Source: Arthrobacter pullicola (GTDB taxonomy: Bacteria > Actinomycetota > Actinomycetes > Actinomycetales > Micrococcaceae). Taken from it: 64,000 bases of DNA. The position numbers and the translations under genes are program-made. A model generated the notes under the pieces. It was not told the origin of the DNA and made no database searches. It saw only the letters and a list, made by a program, of their open reading frames with translations. The DNA is taken from positions 126,555 to 190,554 of the forward strand of contig NZ_JACSQC010000007.1 in assembly GCF_014836875.1 (NCBI RefSeq), given 5' to 3'. Shown piece by piece: positions 1,608 through 60,540 of the stretch. The first letter of the stretch is position 1; every line of letters starts with the position of its first letter.

Positions 1608-1613
1608 ATCTTA
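1608..1613 (-). promoter_or_regulatory. Candidate leaderless -10 (TAAGAT) for the 1253-1600 gene
   Basis: On the minus strand TAAGAT is followed by 7 bases and then the ATG at 1600. An 11-bp palindrome, GACACTGTGTC (1616-1626), lies directly upstream of the hexamer and could be a further operator. No clear -35 was found. Confidence 0.4.
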
Positions 1614-1653
1614 CCGACACTGTGTCAGCGGAACGCAATTCTCTGCATAACAC

Positions 1654-1670
1654 TTCTACAACGGGTAGAA
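1654..1670. promoter_or_regulatory. BlaI/cyd-type operator, fourth copy
   Basis: TTCTACAACGGGTAGAA is a palindrome with 6-bp arms and a 5-base centre. It matches boxes 2 and 3 upstream of cydA (19355-19371 and 19379-19395) at every arm base. It lies 54 to 70 bases upstream of the start codon of the small membrane protein gene. Confidence 0.6.
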
Positions 1671-1735: not shown

Positions 1736-3472
1736 TTAGAGGCCCAGGTCTGCCTCGAAGTTGCCTTCTTCCAGCCGTGCCCGCAGGGTCTGCAGGAAGC
1801 GGCCGGCGTCGGCACCGTCCACCAGGCGGTGGTCGTACGTGAGGGAGAGGTACATCATCGAGCGGATGGCAATGGTGTCATTGCCGTCCGCATCGGTGCG
1901 GACCACCGGACGCTTGACAATCGCGCCCGTGCCCAGGATGCCGACCTGGGGCTGGTTGATAATCGGCGTGTCAAAGAGGGCTCCGACGCTGCCGATGTTG
2001 GTGATGGTGAACGTGCCGCCGGACAGTTCGTCCGGACCGATCTTGTTGTTGCGGGTGCGTGCCCCGACGTCGGCGATGCGCTTGGCCAGGCCGGCGATGT
2101 TCAGGTCCCCGGCGTCGTTGATGACCGGAACCAGCAGACCCTTATCGGTATCCACCGCGATCGCCAGGTGCTCGGCGTCGTGGTAGGTGATCTCCTGCTT
2201 CTCGGCATCGTAGGCGGCGTTGAGGACCGGGTGCTGCTTCAGTGCCTCAACGACAGCCTTGGCGATGAACGGCAGGAAGGTCAGGTTGGCACCGTTCTGG
2301 GCCTTGAACCCGGCCTTGGCCTGCTGGCGCAGAGCGGCGATGCGGGTCATGTCCACTTCGTGGACCTGGGTCAGCTGTGCCGACGTATCCAGGGACTCGA
2401 CCATCCGGCGGGCGATGGTCTGCCGGATCCGGGGAGCCTTGACCGTGGTGCCGCGCAGCTTGGCGCTTTCTTCGCTGATCTTGGCGGCCGGGGCCGGCTT
2501 TCCGGAGGTGGCAGCGGCGGGAGCAGCCTGGGCTTCAGCCTTCTTGGCCTCAGCAGCAGCCAGGACGTCCTGCTTGCGGATGCGTCCGGCAACGCCGCTG
2601 CCCTTGACGGCGGCGAGGTCGATGCCGTGCTCGTTGGCCAGCTTGCGGACCAGCGGCGTGACGTAGGTGCCTTCGGAGCCTGCGGACTCTTCCTTCGCAG
2701 CTTCCTGCTTGGGCGCTTCCTTCGGAGCGGCCTTGGGGGCCTCTTCCTTGGCAGCTGCCTGCTTCGGCTCGGCGACCGGCTCTTCGCGTTCCGTCGACGG
2801 CGCGGCAGCAACCGGCTCGGCTTCCTTCGGTTCTGCCTTCGCCGGCGCGGCGGAGCCGGAACCGATGACAGCCAGAACGGAGCCGACCTCAGCGGTATCG
2901 TCTTCGTTCACCCGGATTTCCAGCAGCTTGCCGGCGACGGGGGAGGGGATCTCGGTATCTACCTTGTCGGTGGAGACCTCGAGCAGCGGCTCGTCCACGG
3001 CAACATCGTCGCCGACAGCCTTCAGCCACCGGGTAACGGTGCCTTCGGTGACGCTCTCGCCGAGGGCGGGCAGGGTGACCTCGGTGCTGTCGCCGGAGCC
3101 GGATCCGGTATCGGACGAACCGGAATCCTGTGCTGCCGGGGCGGCCTCTTCTGCGGGAGCTTCCGGGGCCGGAGCTTCTTCCTTGGCCGGCTCTTCCGCT
3201 GCCGGGGCATCGGAGGAGGAGGCCGAAGAGCCGGAACCGTCGCCGATGCGGACGAGTGCCTCGCCGACCTCGGCGGTCTCGTCTTCAGCGACGAGGATTT
3301 CCTCGATGACGCCGGCTACGGGGGAGGGGATCTCGGTGTCGACCTTGTCGGTGGAAACTTCGAGCAGGGGCTCGTCTACGGCGACGGTATCGCCCACCTG
3401 CTTCAGCCAGCGGGTAACGGTGCCTTCGGTGACGCTCTCACCAAGCGCGGGTAAGTTCACGGTTTCAGACAT
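1736..3472 (-). CDS. sucB: 2-oxoacid dehydrogenase E2 (dihydrolipoamide acyltransferase)
   Basis: This 578-residue protein is the acyltransferase core of a 2-oxoacid dehydrogenase complex. Two nearly identical lipoyl domains each carry [11 protein letters not shown]; the first lipoyl Lys is Lys43. They are joined by Ala/Pro/Glu-rich linkers to an E3-binding domain ([15 protein letters not shown]) and a C-terminal catalytic domain ending in [12 protein letters not shown], with the active-site His and Asp. The ATG at 3472 follows AAGGAGA; the open frame upstream lacks a ribosome site. The E3 gene lpdA lies upstream in the same direction. In actinobacteria this protein is usually named SucB, but work in corynebacteria and mycobacteria showed it serves pyruvate dehydrogenase (DlaT), so substrate choice is left open. 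Confidence 0.93.
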
Positions 3473-3540
3473 ATTGTCCCCGTTTCTCCTTGTTAGTTCT
3501 TTGACCAGCCGTGCCGCTGGTGCTGGTTGGTTTGAGCCTA

Positions 3541-3571
3541 GTGCACCCGGCGGCAATGCTGCCGGGTGCAC
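3541..3571 (-). terminator. Intercistronic hairpin between lpdA and the E2 gene
   Basis: GTGCACCCGGC (3541-3551) pairs perfectly with GCCGGGTGCAC (3561-3571). There is no T run after it on the minus strand, so it may attenuate or protect the lpdA message rather than fully terminate it. Confidence 0.5.
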
Positions 3572-17833: not shown

Positions 17834-18799
17834 CTAGTGAATCAGGCCGGGTGCGAACAGGAGCACGGTAGGCACCGCCAGGAGCAGCACGGAGCACGCC
17901 CGGATGAGCAGGCTCGCCCATTGTGCGAGCGGCGGCTGCGGTGTGAGCAACCGGCTCAGCCGCCCGGCCATGCCCACGGTCTCCGTGCTGCCGCCGCCGG
18001 CGACCGCGGCGGTGCTGACTGCCGGGATGCTGGCGGGGGATTCAGCCCCGGATCCCGATCCCACGATGGCTACGGCCCGGATGAGGGTCTGGCGGTCCAC
18101 CTTCTTCAGTGCTTCGTCGTCGGCCAGCATTTCGATCAGCTCGTTGACGGACCGCTGGGCCAGCTGGGATGTCGGCAGCCACGGAAGTGCGGCCCGCCAG
18201 GCGGCAAAGGCCCACAGCAGCAGGTGGTGGCGCTGGCTCAGGTGAGCCTTCTCATGCGTCATGACCGCGGACAACTCCGACTCGGTGAGGATGTCCATCA
18301 GCCCATCGGACAGCACTGTCACGGACTGCGCTCCACCCGGAAGGCAGTACGCCACCGGCGAGGGATGCTGGATGACCAGGGTTGCGGGTGCGTCCTGGGA
18401 AGGCGAGCTGAGCAGGTTGAGCATGTCCCGGTGGCGGCGCCGCGCGGTCTGGATGCGGTAAAACGTCAGCAGCAGCGTAAAGACCAGGTGGGCCGAGAGC
18501 AGCAGTGCTGCGCTGATGGCGAAAACATGGACCAGGCCGAGGGTCTCGGCCGGCCGGCGCTGGATCAGGATGTCCCAGAGGGCGGCGATGCCCTGCGCGA
18601 GATTTTCGCCTATGGGTTCAAGGCCCCACGTCAGCATCGCGCCGATCATTGACAGGCCGCCGGCAAGGGCGATTGCCTGCCACAGCATCATCGCCGTAAA
18701 GGGGGAGCGCGCCGGCCATTTGGCGCGCGAAAGCACCACGGGCACAGGCCAGGCAAGGATTATCGCCAGCCCGGCAAGGAAGTAGGAAGCCCAGAACAT
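17834..18799 (-). CDS. M56-family membrane metalloprotease (BlaR1/MecR1-like, no sensor domain)
   Basis: This 321-residue protein has hydrophobic segments at about 3-22, 35-60, 88-115, 188-205 and 295-315, and the zinc motif HEKAH at residues 182-186. It matches the membrane protease half of BlaR1 but ends without the penicillin-binding sensor domain (BlaR1 is near 600 residues), so beta-lactam sensing in the classic way is unlikely. In such pairs the protease cleaves or inactivates the BlaI-type repressor. That repressor gene lies directly upstream, 21 bases away, in the same direction. The pair is divergent from cydABDC, which suggests it senses a respiratory or envelope signal (inference). 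Confidence 0.85.
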   Translation of the reverse strand: MFWASYFLAGLAIILAWPVPVVLSRAKWPARSPFTAMMLWQAIALAGGLSMIGAMLTWGLEPIGENLAQGIAALWDILIQRRPAETLGLVHVFAISAALLLSAHLVFTLLLTFYRIQTARRRHRDMLNLLSSPSQDAPATLVIQHPSPVAYCLPGGAQSVTVLSDGLMDILTESELSAVMTHEKAHLSQRHHLLLWAFAAWRAALPWLPTSQLAQRSVNELIEMLADDEALKKVDRQTLIRAVAIVGSGSGAESPASIPAVSTAAVAGGGSTETVGMAGRLSRLLTPQPPLAQWASLLIRACSVLLLAVPTVLLFAPGLIH

Positions 18800-18820: not shown

Positions 18821-19192
18821 CTAGGCGCCTTCCAGCAGCTTGCGCAGGGTCTCGGCTTCGGTAGCAGAGACGGAGCCAACGAACCGGGCGAGAACCGCCT
18901 CGCGGTCATTGGCTGACCCCAGAACCTCGTGCATCAGTTCGGCGGTGTGCTCCGCCCGGGAAGTCACAGCGCGGTAGCGGTGCGGGCGGATGTCGCGTTC
19001 GCGCGCCACCAGGCCCTTCTTCTCGAGCCGGGACAGGACTGTAAGCACAGTGGTGACAGCGAGGCCTTTGGCTTCGGCGCGCCCGGCGTCGTTCTGCGCG
19101 AGCTGTTCCCTCAGCTCATTGGCGGTGGCAGCCTCGGGGGACTCCCACAGCAGGTCCATCATCGCCCGTTCAAGCTCTCCGAGAGTCGCCAT
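18821..19192 (-). CDS. BlaI/MecI-family transcriptional repressor
   Basis: This 123-residue winged-helix protein has the BlaI/MecI/CopY pattern: LGELERAMMDLLWE opening helix, recognition region LAVTTVLTVLSRLEKKGLVARE, a wing with RPHRYRAV, and a C-terminal dimerisation helix pair. ATG at 19192 follows AAGGA; the longer open frame upstream lacks support. It is transcribed with the M56 protease and faces cydA across 229 bases containing three palindromes of BlaI-operator style. Auto-repression and repression of cydA are likely but inferred. Confidence 0.88.
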   Translation of the reverse strand: MATLGELERAMMDLLWESPEAATANELREQLAQNDAGRAEAKGLAVTTVLTVLSRLEKKGLVARERDIRPHRYRAVTSRAEHTAELMHEVLGSANDREAVLARFVGSVSATEAETLRKLLEGA

Positions 19193-19322
19193 ATTCCGTT
19201 CCTTCTTCATTCGGTCTTTCGTTGGGTCCCCGCCGGGGGCGTCCCCGGGCTGGATATCCGCCGAAGCCAGACCCAAATAGTTGTGACGAGAGGGTTAACA
19301 ATACCGGCTTTTAGGACTAGTC

Positions 19323-19337
19323 TCTACGTCTTGTAGA
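19323..19337. promoter_or_regulatory. Operator box 1, blaI-cydA region
   Basis: TCTAC-GTCTT-GTAGA, a palindrome of the TTCTAC-N5-GTAGAA type with 5-bp arms. Its centre is 33 bases from box 2. Confidence 0.55.
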
Positions 19338-19354
19338 AATAAGTCTCCAAAGTG

Positions 19355-19371
19355 TTCTACGATCTGTAGAA
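19355..19371. promoter_or_regulatory. Operator box 2, blaI-cydA region
   Basis: TTCTAC-GATCT-GTAGAA with 6-bp perfect arms. A TACGAT hexamer inside it (19358-19363) could double as a -10 for cydA, though no good -35 is seen. Confidence 0.65.
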
Positions 19372-19378
19372 GAAACTT

Positions 19379-19395
19379 TTCTACTCGTTGTAGAA
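19379..19395. promoter_or_regulatory. Operator box 3, blaI-cydA region
   Basis: TTCTAC-TCGTT-GTAGAA with 6-bp perfect arms, 24 bases centre to centre from box 2 and 27 bases before the cydA start. Bound repressor here would block cydA transcription or elongation. Confidence 0.65.
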
Positions 19396-19421: not shown

Positions 19422-21023
19422 GTGGAAGCACTGGAGATTGCCCGCTGGCAATTCGGCATCACAACCGTCTATCACTTCCTGATGGTTCCACTGACCATCG
19501 GGCTCGGGCTGGTTGTAGCCTCGCTGCAGACCGCCTGGGTACGCACCGGCAAGGAAGAATACCTCCGCCTTACCAAGTTCTGGGGGAAGCTCTTCCTCAT
19601 CAACTTCATCATGGGTGTAGCCACCGGGCTGGTGCAGGAATTCCAGTTCGGCATGGCCTGGAGCGAGTACAGCCGGTTCGTCGGCGACGTCTTTGGCGCG
19701 CCGCTGGCGCTGGAGTCCCTGCTCGCCTTCTTCACCGAGTCCGTGTTCCTTGGGCTGTGGATCTTTGGGTGGCAAAGGCTCCCGAAGAAACTGCATCTGG
19801 CCACGATCTGGCTGGCCACCGGGGCCTCGGCCCTGTCCGCCTACTTCATCCTGGCTGCCAACTCCTGGATGCAGCACCCGGTCGGAGTTGAACTGGTCGA
19901 CGGCCGTGCCGTCATGACCGATATCTGGGCAGTCCTGACCAACAACACGCTGCTGGTTGCCTTCCCGCACACCATCACCGGCGCCTTTGCCGTCGCCGGC
20001 GGCTTCCTGCTGGGAATCTCCTGGTACCACCTGTGGAAGCGGCGCCGCGACGGCATCGACACTGTCGATGAAAACGGCCGCGTGGTCGTGGGCGAAAACG
20101 CTGCCATCGGGCGTGACAAGACGGACTACGCCGTGTGGATCAAGGCGCTGCGGGTTGGTGCCGCCGTCGCCCTCGTTGCCTTTGCCGGCACAGCGATCAC
20201 CGGCGACCTGCAGGCCAAACTGATGTTCGAACAGCAGCCCATGAAGATGGCGGCAGCCGAAGCTGCCTGCCACAACGGCACCTCCTTCTCCGTCCTGTCC
20301 GTCGGCGATGTCGGCGCGCAGAACTGCGAGGATGTCAAGACCCTGATCGAGGTCCCCGGCCTGCTGTCCTTCCTGGCCAACGGCGACTTTGAGACCGAGG
20401 TCGACGGCGTCAACACCCTCATTCCGGAGTACCAGGAGAAGTACGGCACCCACCTGCCGGACGATCCGATGTACGGGGAGCAGGCCGGTGCCGAAATCAA
20501 CTATCTCCCCGTGATGTCCGTGACGTACTGGGGCTTCCGGATCATGATCGGCTTCGGCGCCATCGCTGCTGCCGCCGCCGCCGTCGCCCTCTGGGTCACC
20601 CGCAAGGGCACGGTTCCGCAGTCCAAGTGGCTGATGCGCCTGGCCGTGTTCGGCATCCTGGCTCCGTTCGGCGCCAACAGCGCCGGCTGGATCTTCACCG
20701 AAATGGGCCGACAGCCGTTCGTCGTTGTGCCCAACCCCAGCTTCACGGGTATCGACAATGTCTTTATGTTCACCGCCGCGGCAGTCTCGCCGGGAGTGAG
20801 CCGGGCCGAGCTGCTGTTTTCCGTCATCTCCTTCACGGTGGTCTACCTGGCCCTGCTGGTCGTGGAGGTGAAACTGCTCTTCAAATACGTGCGGGGCGGG
20901 GTTCCCTCAGCGATGCCTGAGCTGGTCCACGCCGGCGATTCCGGCGACGGTCCGGATTCGGAGGATACTCCGGACAAACCAGGCGGACGGAAGTCCGACG
21001 ACGTCCTTGATTTCGCCTACTAG
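19422..21023 (+). CDS. cydA: Cytochrome bd ubiquinol oxidase subunit I
   Basis: This 533-residue integral membrane protein carries the haem groups and quinol site of the high-affinity terminal oxidase. It starts EIARWQFGITTVYH, where His18 corresponds to the b595 ligand His19 of E. coli. The GRQPF segment replaces the usual GRQPW, and the Q-loop is of the short actinobacterial type. About nine membrane helices are visible. The GTG start follows GAAGGA. It heads the operon cydA-cydB-cydDC and lies behind three palindromic operators next to a BlaI-type repressor gene. Confidence 0.96.
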   Translation: MEALEIARWQFGITTVYHFLMVPLTIGLGLVVASLQTAWVRTGKEEYLRLTKFWGKLFLINFIMGVATGLVQEFQFGMAWSEYSRFVGDVFGAPLALESLLAFFTESVFLGLWIFGWQRLPKKLHLATIWLATGASALSAYFILAANSWMQHPVGVELVDGRAVMTDIWAVLTNNTLLVAFPHTITGAFAVAGGFLLGISWYHLWKRRRDGIDTVDENGRVVVGENAAIGRDKTDYAVWIKALRVGAAVALVAFAGTAITGDLQAKLMFEQQPMKMAAAEAACHNGTSFSVLSVGDVGAQNCEDVKTLIEVPGLLSFLANGDFETEVDGVNTLIPEYQEKYGTHLPDDPMYGEQAGAEINYLPVMSVTYWGFRIMIGFGAIAAAAAAVALWVTRKGTVPQSKWLMRLAVFGILAPFGANSAGWIFTEMGRQPFVVVPNPSFTGIDNVFMFTAAAVSPGVSRAELLFSVISFTVVYLALLVVEVKLLFKYVRGGVPSAMPELVHAGDSGDGPDSEDTPDKPGGRKSDDVLDFAY

Positions 21024-21041: not shown

Positions 21042-22058
21042 ATGACGCTTCCAACAATCTGGTTCATCGTTATCGCCTTCCTGTGGGTCGGCTATCTCTT
21101 CCTGGAAGGCTTCGACCTGGGCGTGGGCATGCTCATGAAGCTCTTTGCCCGCAATGAACGCGACCGCCGCGTGCTGCTGAACACCATCGGCCCCGTCTGG
21201 GACGGAAACGAGGTGTGGCTGATTACCGCCGGTGCCATGACGTTCGCGGCCTTCCCCTTCTGGTACGCAGCCCTGTTCTCGGCTCTCTACGTGCCGCTGG
21301 TACTGGTGCTGCTGGGACTGATTTTCCGCGCCGTGTCCATCGAATACCGCGGCAAGCACGATTCAGACCGCTGGCGGAGCCGCTGGGACTGGGCCATGTC
21401 GCTGGGTTCGTTTGTCAGCGCCTTCGGCGTCGGCGCCGCCCTGGCCCTGACTTCCACGGGCCTGCCGCTGAATGAAAACGGGGACCGCGTGGGTGGAGCC
21501 TTCGCCTGGCTCACCCCCTGGGCCGTCGTTGGCGGGCTCGCCGTGGTCGGTTTCAGCCTGATCCATGCCTGCGCCTTCCTCATGCTCAAGACCGACGGCG
21601 AAATCCGCGCCCGCGCCCGCCGCGCCCTGGTCCGCTGGCTTCCGCTGGGTATCCTGCCGCTGGCTGCCTGGGCCGTCGGCGTGCAGGTCCTCAACGGGGA
21701 CGCCTTCTCGCTGGTGCCGCTGATTATCGCTGTTGTTGCCGTGGTGATTGCCTGGCGCATGGCCCACCTGGGCAAGGAAGGCCTGGCTTTCACCTTCCTG
21801 GGTCTGTTCCTGCTGGCCGGAGCCGTCTCGATTTTCGCGGCCATGTACCCCGTGGTGCTGCCGTCCACACTGGATTCCGCCTGGAACCTGACCGTCGAGA
21901 ACGCGTCCTCCAGCCCCTACACCCTGCAGGTCATGACCTGGGTGTCCGTGTTCGGCCTGCCGATTGTGCTGCTCTACCAGGGCTGGACCTACTGGGTTTT
22001 CCGCAAGCGCGTTTCGGCTGACTCCATCCCTGCCGTCCATAAGGTCAACGCCCAGTGA
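21042..22058 (+). CDS. cydB: Cytochrome bd ubiquinol oxidase subunit II
   Basis: This 338-residue membrane protein forms the oxidase with CydA. It starts LPTIWFIVIAFLWVGYLFLEGFDLGVGML, the typical CydB first helix, and contains GPVWDGNEVWLI. About eight helices are present and the length is normal. It starts 18 bases after cydA. Its stop overlaps the start of cydDC by 4 bases (GTGA), showing translational coupling. Confidence 0.96.
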   Translation: MTLPTIWFIVIAFLWVGYLFLEGFDLGVGMLMKLFARNERDRRVLLNTIGPVWDGNEVWLITAGAMTFAAFPFWYAALFSALYVPLVLVLLGLIFRAVSIEYRGKHDSDRWRSRWDWAMSLGSFVSAFGVGAALALTSTGLPLNENGDRVGGAFAWLTPWAVVGGLAVVGFSLIHACAFLMLKTDGEIRARARRALVRWLPLGILPLAAWAVGVQVLNGDAFSLVPLIIAVVAVVIAWRMAHLGKEGLAFTFLGLFLLAGAVSIFAAMYPVVLPSTLDSAWNLTVENASSSPYTLQVMTWVSVFGLPIVLLYQGWTYWVFRKRVSADSIPAVHKVNAQ

Positions 22059-25000
22059 AACCAGTCCTTCCCGTCAGCGCCACCAGCCGCCGGGCCCTCT
22101 ACCTGCTGGGCCTGCTCGCGGCGGTGAAGGCCGCAGGCCTGGTCCTGCTTGCCACCGGCATCGCCGCCGGCATTGCAGGGCTGGCCGGCGGCGGCCCGGA
22201 CTGGGGATACGTTGCAGCAACCGGAGTGTCCGGCGCGCTGCTGCGTTCCCTTGCCATGTGGGCCCAGGACACTGTGGCCCAGCGGGCCGCCGCGGGCGTG
22301 AAGGACGAACTGCGCAGCCAACTCACCAACCGCGTATTGGAAGACGGTGGATCGGTTCCCGGGATGGGCAGCGGTTCGCTCAGTGTGCTCCTGACCCGCG
22401 GCCTTGACGGACTGGACAACTATTACGCCAAGTACCTGCCCGCGCTGGTCACCTGTGCCGTGGTGCCGCTGCTGGTGGGCGCGCGCATCCTGGCAGCCGA
22501 CTGGATCAGCGCCGTCGTGATTGTGCTGACCGTTCCGCTGGTACCGGTGTTTATGGTGCTGATCGGCCTGCACACCGGAGATAAGACTGCCAAGGCCATC
22601 GACGCGCTGAACCGGCTCTCGGACAACATGCTGGAACTGGCCAAGGGCCTTCCGGTGCTGGTCGGTCTGGGCCGCGCCCAGGCACAGACCCGTGCGCTCC
22701 GCGACGTCGCCGACCGGTACCGTAAGACCACCCTGGAAACGCTGCGGGTCGCTTTCCTCTCCTCCCTCGCGCTGGAACTCATTGCGACCATCTCCGTGGC
22801 CGTGGTGGCCGTCTTCATCGGCGTCCGCCTGGTTCACGGAGACATGCCGCTGGAAATGGGGCTCCTGGCACTGATCCTGGCGCCGGAGTGCTACCAGCCG
22901 CTGCGTGACCTGGGAACCGCGCACCACGCCAGCGAAGACGGGCTGGAAGCCCTGAAGCGGACCAATGCTGTTTTGGATGCTCCCGCAGCCAAACCGCTTT
23001 CCCGCTCAGCCAACGGAACCGGACACACCGCCGGCCCCGGACTAAGTGTCAGGGGACTGACCGTCCGCTATCCCGGTCGTGCCGAACCCGTGCTCAAGGG
23101 CCTGGAGTTCACAGTGCCCCAGGGAAGCATCGCCGCACTGACCGGTCCCAGCGGCAGCGGAAAGACCACGGTCCTGGAAATCCTGGCTGGCCTGCGCCGC
23201 AGCGGTTCCGGGACCGAAATCTCCGGAGCTGCAGAGGGAATCGACCGTGATGCCATCGCCTGGATCCCGCAGCACCCCGTACTTGTCGAGGACACCGTCG
23301 AGGCGGAGCTTGGCCTGTACTCCGGACTGGCCGACCCGGGCGAGCGGCGCCGGGCCGCGCGCCGCGCGCTGGCTGAAATCGGCGCAGCGCACCTGCTGGA
23401 GGCACAGTCCGGGGACCTCAGCCCCGGCGAGCAGCGCCGGGTTGCCGTTGCCCGGGCCATCGCCCGCATCCAGAACGGCTCCGGTGTCCGGGTCCTGCTG
23501 GCCGACGAGCCCACCGCGCACCTGGACTCCCGCAGCGCTGCCGCAGTCCGTGCTGCCCTGTCCCGCCTGCGGGGACACTGCACAGTCCTGCTCGTAGCCC
23601 ACGATCCGGAAACCGCGGCCCTTGCAGACACCGTTATCTCCGTCTCCGGCAGCGTGAGCCCCGCCGGCGTCCTCCGGCAGGCCGCCGGGGAAGCAGACCC
23701 CGCCCCCCTGCGGCAGGAGGAGGCCCAGGTACCCGCCGGCCCCGCTGCCACGGACACGCAGGGCATCAAGCGCCAGCCGCTCTGGAAAAACCTGCTCATC
23801 CTTCGTCCATGGAGTCCCCGGTTCCTGCAGGCGCTGGCCTACGGCACCGGCGCCACCATCTTCGCCGTTGCCTTGAGCGCCCTGTCCGGATGGCTGATTG
23901 TCAGGGCTTCCGAGCAGCCGCCCATCCTCTACCTGCTGACAGCGATCGTCGGCGTCAGGTTCTTCGGAATCGGACGCGCCGTGCTGCGGTACCGCGAACG
24001 CCTGCACCTGCACGACGCCGTGTTCCGGGCCACCAACTCCATCCGCATCCGGCTCTGGAACGGGCTCCTGAACCGCCCCGAAGGCTGGCGCCGGCTGTCC
24101 CGCGGCGGCGGAGCGCTGGAACGGCTGGTGGGCGACGTCGATGAACTGCGCGATATCGCCCCCCGGGTGGTGTTTGCGCCGCTGACAGGCTTTGTGACCG
24201 CTGCCGCCGCGTGCGCGGCGACCTGGATCCTTGTGCCCGAGGCCATCTGGGTCCAGATCGGCCTCTGCCTGATCGGACTGGTGGGCTCGCCGCTGCTGGC
24301 CCACTGGGCTGATGCCTCCGCCCGTGCCCGGACGGTGACACTGCAGTCACGGGCCATGGCCGGAATGACCAAGCTGCTGGCTGCCGCACCGGACCTGGAA
24401 GGGAACAGCAGCTCAGGGCCGGTGCTTGAGCGTCAGCGAAGCTACGATTCAGCCGCCGCGCATGCCGTCCGCCGCAGTGCCTGGGCCCAGGGCCTGGCCA
24501 ATGCAGTCACAGCTTTGGCCTGCGCCGGATCCGCACTGTGGATCATGACTCTTGCCCAGGACGCGCCTGCAACGGTCGCCGCAGTGATCGTGCTGATGCA
24601 GCTGGCGCTGCTGGAGTGCTTTGCCGCCGTAAACGGTTCCATCCAGCAGCTCGGTGCCTGGCGGATCCTCGGAGACAAGGTCCTTCCGGACCTGGGTTCC
24701 AGCGAGGTGGACCCGGGGACGGCCCCGGAGGCCGGACAATCAGCCGCAGAAGCGGCGGCGTTGGACTCCGGTCGGACAGCCCCCCGGCGGGCTGGAAGCC
24801 TTGAACTGCACGGTATCCACTACCGCTATCCCGGTGCCGCCGCCGATGTGCTCGATGGTGTGGACCTGGTCCTGAAGCCCGGCGACTGGCTGGCTGTCAC
24901 CGGCGAATCCGGCAGCGGAAAATCCACGCTGCTCGGGGTGCTGCTTGGCTTCCTGGAGCCTCAGCGGGGCACCTTCCTCATCGACGGAGAACCTGCCTCG

Positions 25001-25462
25001 GACTTCCCGCGGGAGGGCCGCGGCATGGCCTGGTGCCCGCAGGAGGCGCACCTGTTCGATTCGACCCTGCGGGGGAACCTCCTGCTGGCGCGGGACCGCA
25101 GCAAGGCCCCGTCCACGGCCGAGATGCTGGAAGTCCTCGACGCCGTTGGCCTCGGGCAGCTGATTGCCGGCCTGGAGGACGGCCTGGACACTCGAATCGG
25201 CAACGGAGGCCACTTCCTCTCCGGCGGCCAGCGCCAGCGCCTTGCCGTCGCGCGGGCACTGCTGACGGAAGCCGACGTCGTGCTCCTGGACGAACCCACC
25301 GCGCACCTGGACCCGGCTGCCGGAAAGCAGCTGATGGCAGACCTGCGGAGCGGACTGAGCGGCAAGTCGGTGGTGGTGGTGACGCACAACCCGGCTGACG
25401 CGGCATGGTGCAGCCGGCGGCTCGAACTGGGTTCAGCACAGCGGAGTCTTGCCGTACGCTAA
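22055..25462 (+). CDS. cydDC: CydDC fused ABC exporter for cytochrome bd assembly
   Basis: This 1135-residue protein joins two complete ABC half-transporters. The first half has membrane helices in residues 10-300, Walker A GPSGSGKTT, signature LSPGEQRRVAVARA and Walker B VLLADEPTAHLD. The second has helices at about 590-850, Walker A GESGSGKST, signature LSGGQRQRLAVARALL and VLLDEPTAHLD. In E. coli CydC and CydD are separate proteins that export reduced thiols and are needed to assemble cytochrome bd. A single-chain form is known in actinobacteria. It is the last gene of the cyd operon. Confidence 0.93.
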   Translation: MKPVLPVSATSRRALYLLGLLAAVKAAGLVLLATGIAAGIAGLAGGGPDWGYVAATGVSGALLRSLAMWAQDTVAQRAAAGVKDELRSQLTNRVLEDGGSVPGMGSGSLSVLLTRGLDGLDNYYAKYLPALVTCAVVPLLVGARILAADWISAVVIVLTVPLVPVFMVLIGLHTGDKTAKAIDALNRLSDNMLELAKGLPVLVGLGRAQAQTRALRDVADRYRKTTLETLRVAFLSSLALELIATISVAVVAVFIGVRLVHGDMPLEMGLLALILAPECYQPLRDLGTAHHASEDGLEALKRTNAVLDAPAAKPLSRSANGTGHTAGPGLSVRGLTVRYPGRAEPVLKGLEFTVPQGSIAALTGPSGSGKTTVLEILAGLRRSGSGTEISGAAEGIDRDAIAWIPQHPVLVEDTVEAELGLYSGLADPGERRRAARRALAEIGAAHLLEAQSGDLSPGEQRRVAVARAIARIQNGSGVRVLLADEPTAHLDSRSAAAVRAALSRLRGHCTVLLVAHDPETAALADTVISVSGSVSPAGVLRQAAGEADPAPLRQEEAQVPAGPAATDTQGIKRQPLWKNLLILRPWSPRFLQALAYGTGATIFAVALSALSGWLIVRASEQPPILYLLTAIVGVRFFGIGRAVLRYRERLHLHDAVFRATNSIRIRLWNGLLNRPEGWRRLSRGGGALERLVGDVDELRDIAPRVVFAPLTGFVTAAAACAATWILVPEAIWVQIGLCLIGLVGSPLLAHWADASARARTVTLQSRAMAGMTKLLAAAPDLEGNSSSGPVLERQRSYDSAAAHAVRRSAWAQGLANAVTALACAGSALWIMTLAQDAPATVAAVIVLMQLALLECFAAVNGSIQQLGAWRILGDKVLPDLGSSEVDPGTAPEAGQSAAEAAALDSGRTAPRRAGSLELHGIHYRYPGAAADVLDGVDLVLKPGDWLAVTGESGSGKSTLLGVLLGFLEPQRGTFLIDGEPASDFPREGRGMAWCPQEAHLFDSTLRGNLLLARDRSKAPSTAEMLEVLDAVGLGQLIAGLEDGLDTRIGNGGHFLSGGQRQRLAVARALLTEADVVLLDEPTAHLDPAAGKQLMADLRSGLSGKSVVVVTHNPADAAWCSRRLELGSAQRSLAVR
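25455..25460 (+). promoter_or_regulatory. Candidate leaderless -10 (TACGCT) for the double-GNAT gene
   Basis: TACGCT ends 7 bases before the ATG at 25468, inside the end of cydDC. No Shine-Dalgarno site is present, so a leaderless message is plausible. Confidence 0.45.
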
Positions 25463-60384: not shown

Positions 60385-60540
60385 GCCAGCAGACGATACC
60401 TCCGCATGACCCTGCTGCACAGGGTAGAAACCTCGACCTGCCACGGCCTTCGCCGTTACTGTGGCACCAAAAGTGCGGCGATCCCTGGCCGGATCCACCG
60501 GTCTGTGCGAAAGGCAGCCGCGCAGGCGAAGGAGCACACC

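Follow-up and report, generated by a model that had tools for sequence, protein, structure and literature searches.

Why should the gene of a small membrane protein carry the operator of a terminal oxidase operon located far away on the same contig? Within the stretch of DNA analyzed here (the window, 64,000 nucleotides), the sequence TTCTACAACGGGTAGAA at positions 1654-1670 forms a 17-bp dyad of the pattern TTCTACN5GTAGAA. It is situated past the 3' end of a sucB-type gene (1736-3571, reverse strand), and 53 bp separate its end from the ATG of P0001 (1253-1600, reverse strand), a 115-aa membrane protein with four helices and no named family, as judged from its translation, profiles and structural model. 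An exact pattern scan of the window confirms this box. It shares all 12 arm bases with two exact copies upstream of cydA, box 2 (19355-19371) and box 3 (19379-19395), which are accompanied by box 1 with one mismatch (19322-19338). The original prediction of an exact cyd-type box some 18 kb from the oxidase genes is therefore borne out, the P0001 ATG and the cydA start lying 17.8 kb apart. Its further remark that no other copy was noticed in the window outside these two places stands at up to one mismatch; with two mismatches, 60413-60429 is the sole additional site. Five window sites at up to two mismatches compare with 0.31 expected (sd 0.58), a number reached in none of 100 dinucleotide shuffles.

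The three cyd boxes lie between a BlaI-type (Penicillinase_R) repressor gene (18821-19192, reverse strand; PF03965, E 2.2e-21) and cydA (19422-21023; PF01654, E 1.5e-150), cydB (21042-22058; PF02322, E 3.9e-103) and a cydD-cydC fusion (22055-25462; TIGR02857 and TIGR02868 over cut-off), all on the forward strand. BlaI/MecI proteins are repressors. Among solved structures, the window protein comes closest to 2g9w_A (E 3e-18), an entry titled conserved hypothetical protein, which we take to be M. tuberculosis Rv1846c. Adjoining the repressor gene, positions 17834-18799 (reverse strand) encode a 321-aa membrane metallopeptidase with HEKAH at residue 182, a BlaR-like candidate anti-repressor. It scores 41.5 bits against PF01435 (M48; cut-off 20.3, E 1.7e-10), 20.7 bits against the M56 domain PF05569 (below the cut-off of 31) and 11.5 bits against the NCBIfam model blaR1_generic (cut-off 400). 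The pair has in common with staphylococcal BlaI/MecI-BlaR1/MecR1 the Penicillinase_R repressor fold and a HEXXH membrane peptidase, but unlike BlaR1/MecR1 the peptidase yields only PF01435 and PF05569 in Pfam at E <=0.001, and no penicillin-binding sensor domain.

A closer parallel is found in M. tuberculosis, where a BlaI-type repressor (Rv1846c) also adjoins a BlaR-type peptidase (Rv1845c). PMC5473688, citing Sala 2009, describes BlaI binding at the promoters of cytochrome bd and ATP synthase, together with a mycobacterial BlaR that lacks a sensor domain. Passages of PMC5874750, PMC8265638 and PMC7924339 cite the same regulon, and the last also places cydB under SenX3/RegX3. According to excerpts of PMC12565901, M. 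tuberculosis BlaI binds the promoter of Rv1303, which is co-transcribed with the ATP synthase genes, and represses it. The sections seen of PMC11561320 add nothing further on BlaI targets, and those of PMC12140626 do not mention BlaI. Within the top-ranking open literature, to which the search was limited, the studies found deal with mycobacterial BlaI, and none places BlaI at respiratory genes in Arthrobacter or its relatives.

How far does this box extend beyond the window? The nearest named relatives of the window genome are Arthrobacter, and a pattern scan of its 3.62 Mb returned 15 places at up to one mismatch (6 exact and 9 with one mismatch), compared to 6 for the reversed pattern and 5, none exact, for a second control, CATCTTN5AAGATG. 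The 11 places outside the window were inspected and their targets identified from profiles. Together with the three cyd boxes and 1654-1670, 13 of the 15 stand at promoters judged plausible by position, mostly of respiration and haem genes. Exact boxes precede a flavohaemoprotein gene (NCBIfam match below cut-off, Pfam domains above theirs) and hemQ, the latter box lying 9 bp past the preceding ORF, ahead of the HemQ match and then the ferrochelatase (hemH) and porphobilinogen deaminase (hemC) genes. One-mismatch boxes are found upstream of the gene for aa3 oxidase subunit III (ctaE) with qcrC and qcrA; of genes for an ABC ATPase, an ABC-2 permease and COX15-CtaA; of a ResA/TlpA-like gene with DsbD_TM (CcdA-like) and ResB genes; of sucC and sucD; and of a 163-aa ORF without a Pfam match, followed by ATP synthase subunit a, which resembles mycobacterial Rv1303 by position. 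The ctaE-qcrCA box is also 12 bp ahead of a divergent ORF named trpD-like by eye. Two unnamed small membrane ORFs carry a box as well (C7:308927, exact; C11:213424, one mismatch). The two remaining places, both with one mismatch, comprise C9:280557, which has no clear target, and C12:214257, which lies within a dioxygenase-type gene. None of the six exact copies falls inside a profile-supported coding region, so the motif is not one that abounds in coding DNA, as would have spoken against the original prediction. At the places that were opened, no beta-lactamase gene was recognized.

Because the cyd boxes are part of a set spread across the genome, mostly at respiration and haem genes, P0001 is no odd outsider and its link extends beyond cytochrome bd. 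The initial view of a fourth cyd operator stranded at an unrelated gene thus gives way to membership in this set, and the suggested tie to the cytochrome bd regulon survives in part: a box is kept at P0001 beyond chance, but it marks respiration and haem genes generally. As in M. tuberculosis, where BlaI is reported at the ATP synthase and cytochrome bd promoters, boxes occur here at both operons. In contrast to that species, blaI adjoins cydABDC, and the set adds bc1-aa3, cytochrome c and haem a assembly, haem synthesis, sucCD and P0001. The sequence features of an M. tuberculosis-type regulon are present: a BlaI-family repressor is encoded in the genome (PF03965; 2g9w), a common operator occurs at blaI/cyd, at ATP synthase (with one mismatch) and at P0001, and the operator is kept at P0001 within the family, Micrococcaceae, although not outside it. 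The P0001 box would be a new member beside the already reported mycobacterial BlaI control of respiration.

Seven other genomes of the same genus contain 14-16 places each at up to one mismatch, compared to 5-13 for the control. This background is not negligible, and a single near-match therefore requires a test of conservation. In three of these seven genomes, 20 places (12, 5 and 3), taken from a listing that covers two of the seven in part, were inspected and labeled by own-genome proteins. They include hemQ (three), the junction of a DUF308 gene with a 131-aa ORF (three), sucC (two), and one each of tlpA, the Rv1303-like ORF, ctaE, ABC-ctaA, the membrane gene type seen at C11:213424 and the doubtful C9:280557 place; six had no label. 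One of these six, in relative G146 (L323:1457-3001), is a one-mismatch box directly ahead of a CopD-CtaG fusion gene. At the DUF308 junction, boxes with different spacers occur in three relatives, and in one locus (L011:2528-2973) an exact box stands 33 bp ahead of the 131-aa unnamed membrane ORF.

Conservation was gauged at P0001 itself, which has matches in 124 of 149 genomes of the family. Upstream DNA was taken for 90 listed matches and the box scored within 250 bp. At least 10 of the 12 arm bases are present in 48 of the 90 loci (0.33% in mononucleotide shuffles) and at least 11 in 37 (0 of 4,500 shuffles), while the reversed consensus never exceeds 9. All eight same-genus loci retain 11 or 12 arm bases, as do 69 of 80 named loci, whose species overlap with the 90; in 78 of these 80, a sucB-type gene is directly upstream. 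Such retention, well beyond chance, supports a tie between this gene and the family of boxes at blaI and cytochrome bd. The arms of the 48 box-bearing loci are TTCTAC/GTAGAA in 13, TACTAC/GTAGAA in 10, TTCGAC/GTCGAA in 10, TTCTAC/GTCGAA in 8, TGCTAC/GTAGAA in 4 and three other forms once each. They drift across genera, so affinity may differ, whereas the cydA boxes stay TTCTAC/GTAGAA; within single genomes, the arms at the two genes were not found to drift together. Of the 136 family genomes with cydA, 63 had their cydA upstream region examined, and every one of these regions contains an exact box, including that of G004, whose cydA lies on another contig than its best blaI match.

The protein family, which extends through the class, reaches well beyond these boxes. 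Matches to P0001 occur in 111 of 198 genomes of an order sample and in 32 of 396 of a phylum sample, family members included in both. Outside the family, at least 10 arm bases are present in only 4 of 69 order loci, all within a single family (4 of 13 there), leaving 65 without a box; of 28 loci in the phylum sample, 23 score no higher than 8 of 12, nine phylum-sample loci being reused in the order count. The idea that this operator generally accompanies the protein family is consequently rejected outside Micrococcaceae and, given the rarity of the box there, the P0001 family is wider than its predicted BlaI control. Upstream of the P0001 homologue, two loci from a single genus outside the order (L347 and L352, excluded from these counts) have TACGACN5GTAGTA (9/12), which may be a diverged version of this operator.

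Does the box follow the repressor? A BlaI match is present in 131 of 149 family genomes. At P0001, none of the 12 loci from genomes lacking a detected blaI has the box, against 48 of the 78 loci whose genomes have one (Fisher p 4e-5), an association confounded by descent as the 12 loci come from three genera; the other 30 of the 78 have blaI and no box. Furthermore, P0001 occurs in six genomes that yielded no cydA (G005, G014, G068, G083, G134 and G147), which argues that it is not a dedicated part of cytochrome bd.

The promoter region offers additional clues. A probable -10 hexamer, TAAGAT (1608-1613, reverse strand), lies 7 nt before the P0001 ATG, and 76 of the 90 orthologue loci have TANNNT 4-9 nt ahead of their start codon, compared to 4.3% in shuffles. 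Its closeness to the start codon suggests that P0001 is likely transcribed without a leader. The box is proximal in 33 of the 48 box-bearing loci and ends 5-9 nt before a -10-like hexamer in 27 of these 33, an arrangement that fits repression of such a promoter. Scans of 1500-1800 for sigma-70 promoters and terminators found nothing. A second dyad, TGACACAGTGTC (TGACAN3TGTC; 1616-1627, reverse strand), overlaps the promoter and recurs in the alignment with at least 8 of 9 bases in 25 of 90 loci (null 0.5%), including all eight of the same genus. A second regulon built on it was rejected, since an own-genome scan of both strands gave 13 places against 11 for a control; the P0001 copy is the only exact instance of the extended form TGACAN3TGTCN3AA in that genome.

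Taken together, these observations make it highly probable that 1654-1670 is a site of the BlaI encoded beside cydA. By this account, BlaI would bind the box as one of a respiratory set comprising cytochrome bd, bc1-aa3, ATP synthase, haem and cytochrome assembly, sucCD and P0001, and would repress the probably leaderless P0001 promoter until the adjacent membrane peptidase inactivates it, upon which P0001 would be expressed. Coincidence is a very poor alternative. A GC-rich inverted repeat does lie between the sucB-type gene and the box, as might suit a terminator of that gene, and in some relatives the one-mismatch background nearly equals the signal; a chance dyad or terminator fragment would nevertheless have to account for a separate conserved block whose arms stay while its spacing from the start codon differs between classes, and for arm scores of 11 that neither shuffles nor the reversed consensus ever reach.

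The identity of the binder leaves somewhat more room. Some family genomes have two or three BlaI-type matches, and the variable arms at P0001 (the two GTCGAA forms account for 10 and 8 of 48) beside constant cydA boxes could reflect another factor of similar specificity, such as a paralogous BlaI/CopY-type protein. This is improbable, as the window genome has one BlaI match only and identical arms at both places, and the box is missing from every sampled locus without a detected blaI. A more serious, if still unlikely, proposal concerns the manner of action. Within the window's genus, 52-63 bp separate the box from the start, so that it need not overlap a leaderless promoter; 15 of the 48 box-bearing loci have it more than 35 bp away, and the second dyad occupies the promoter in all eight same-genus loci. 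BlaI might there act from upstream, as an activator or together with the second dyad, rather than by simply blocking the promoter. Against this stand the predominance of proximal boxes and the repressor nature of BlaI/MecI proteins at large. Repression is likewise what the excerpts of PMC12565901 report for Rv1303. BlaI as a repressor at P0001 thus remains the preferred reading.

What, then, might P0001 do? An AlphaFold model built with 48 sequences (mean pLDDT 96) has helices at 2-25, 34-56, 63-88 and 95-114. In an alignment of 164 rows, which include repeats of species and are counted where a row has a letter, His12 (161/161), Gly47 (164/164), Lys69 (164/164) and Trp115 (158/158) are invariant, placing a histidine in helix 1 and a lysine in helix 3. 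At position 99, His occupies 112 of the 138 family rows, but the window protein has Asn there. Gln stands at position 36 in all but one of the 138 family rows, and all 26 rows from outside the family have Met. P0001 has no Pfam family at E <=0.001, none in Pfam or NCBIfam over cut-off and no sequence match to solved structures. DUF2269, SirB and CopD-type proteins are akin to one another, and P0001 resembles them in its four helices and helix-1 histidine, but all its profile matches to them are sub-threshold: among 48 orthologues, DUF2269 appears in 10 and SirB in 1, none better than E 0.02 (DUF2269 at best 0.053). Gene searches for UPF0093 (HemJ) and DUF2269 gave no loci in the genomes searched, nor, for DUF2269, in any control genome, which leaves the DUF2269 result uninformative. 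The fold search returned 272 matches at E <=10 and none at 0.001, the best being a designed two-haem bundle (E 0.09, TM about 0.66-0.72). P0001 does not fit a bis-histidine haem b protein, as His12 is the sole invariant histidine and two invariant axial ligands are lacking; haem might still be ligated through a dimer or another ligand. Regulon membership and the intramembrane histidine invite the guess of a haem or quinone role. P0001 probably serves the respiratory membrane generally, in haem, quinone or oxidase assembly or protection and not bd alone, by a weak line of reasoning; copper handling, also proposed originally, finds no specific support. One could go further and regard P0001 as the first recognized member of an actinobacterial membrane family, widespread in its class, that has an intramembrane His12/Lys69 pair, acts on a respiratory cofactor (haem or menaquinone) and, in Micrococcaceae, was recruited into a BlaI/peptidase switch controlling most of the aerobic respiratory chain and not beta-lactam resistance, a speculation we consider rather doubtful as a whole.

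An unnamed, widely conserved membrane protein nonetheless gains a physiological setting, that of energy metabolism. The BlaI/peptidase pair, named for beta-lactamase control, is suggested to act mainly on oxidative phosphorylation in these actinobacteria. This may also affect the interpretation of BlaI in mycobacteria, for which control of ATP synthase and cytochrome bd has already been reported.
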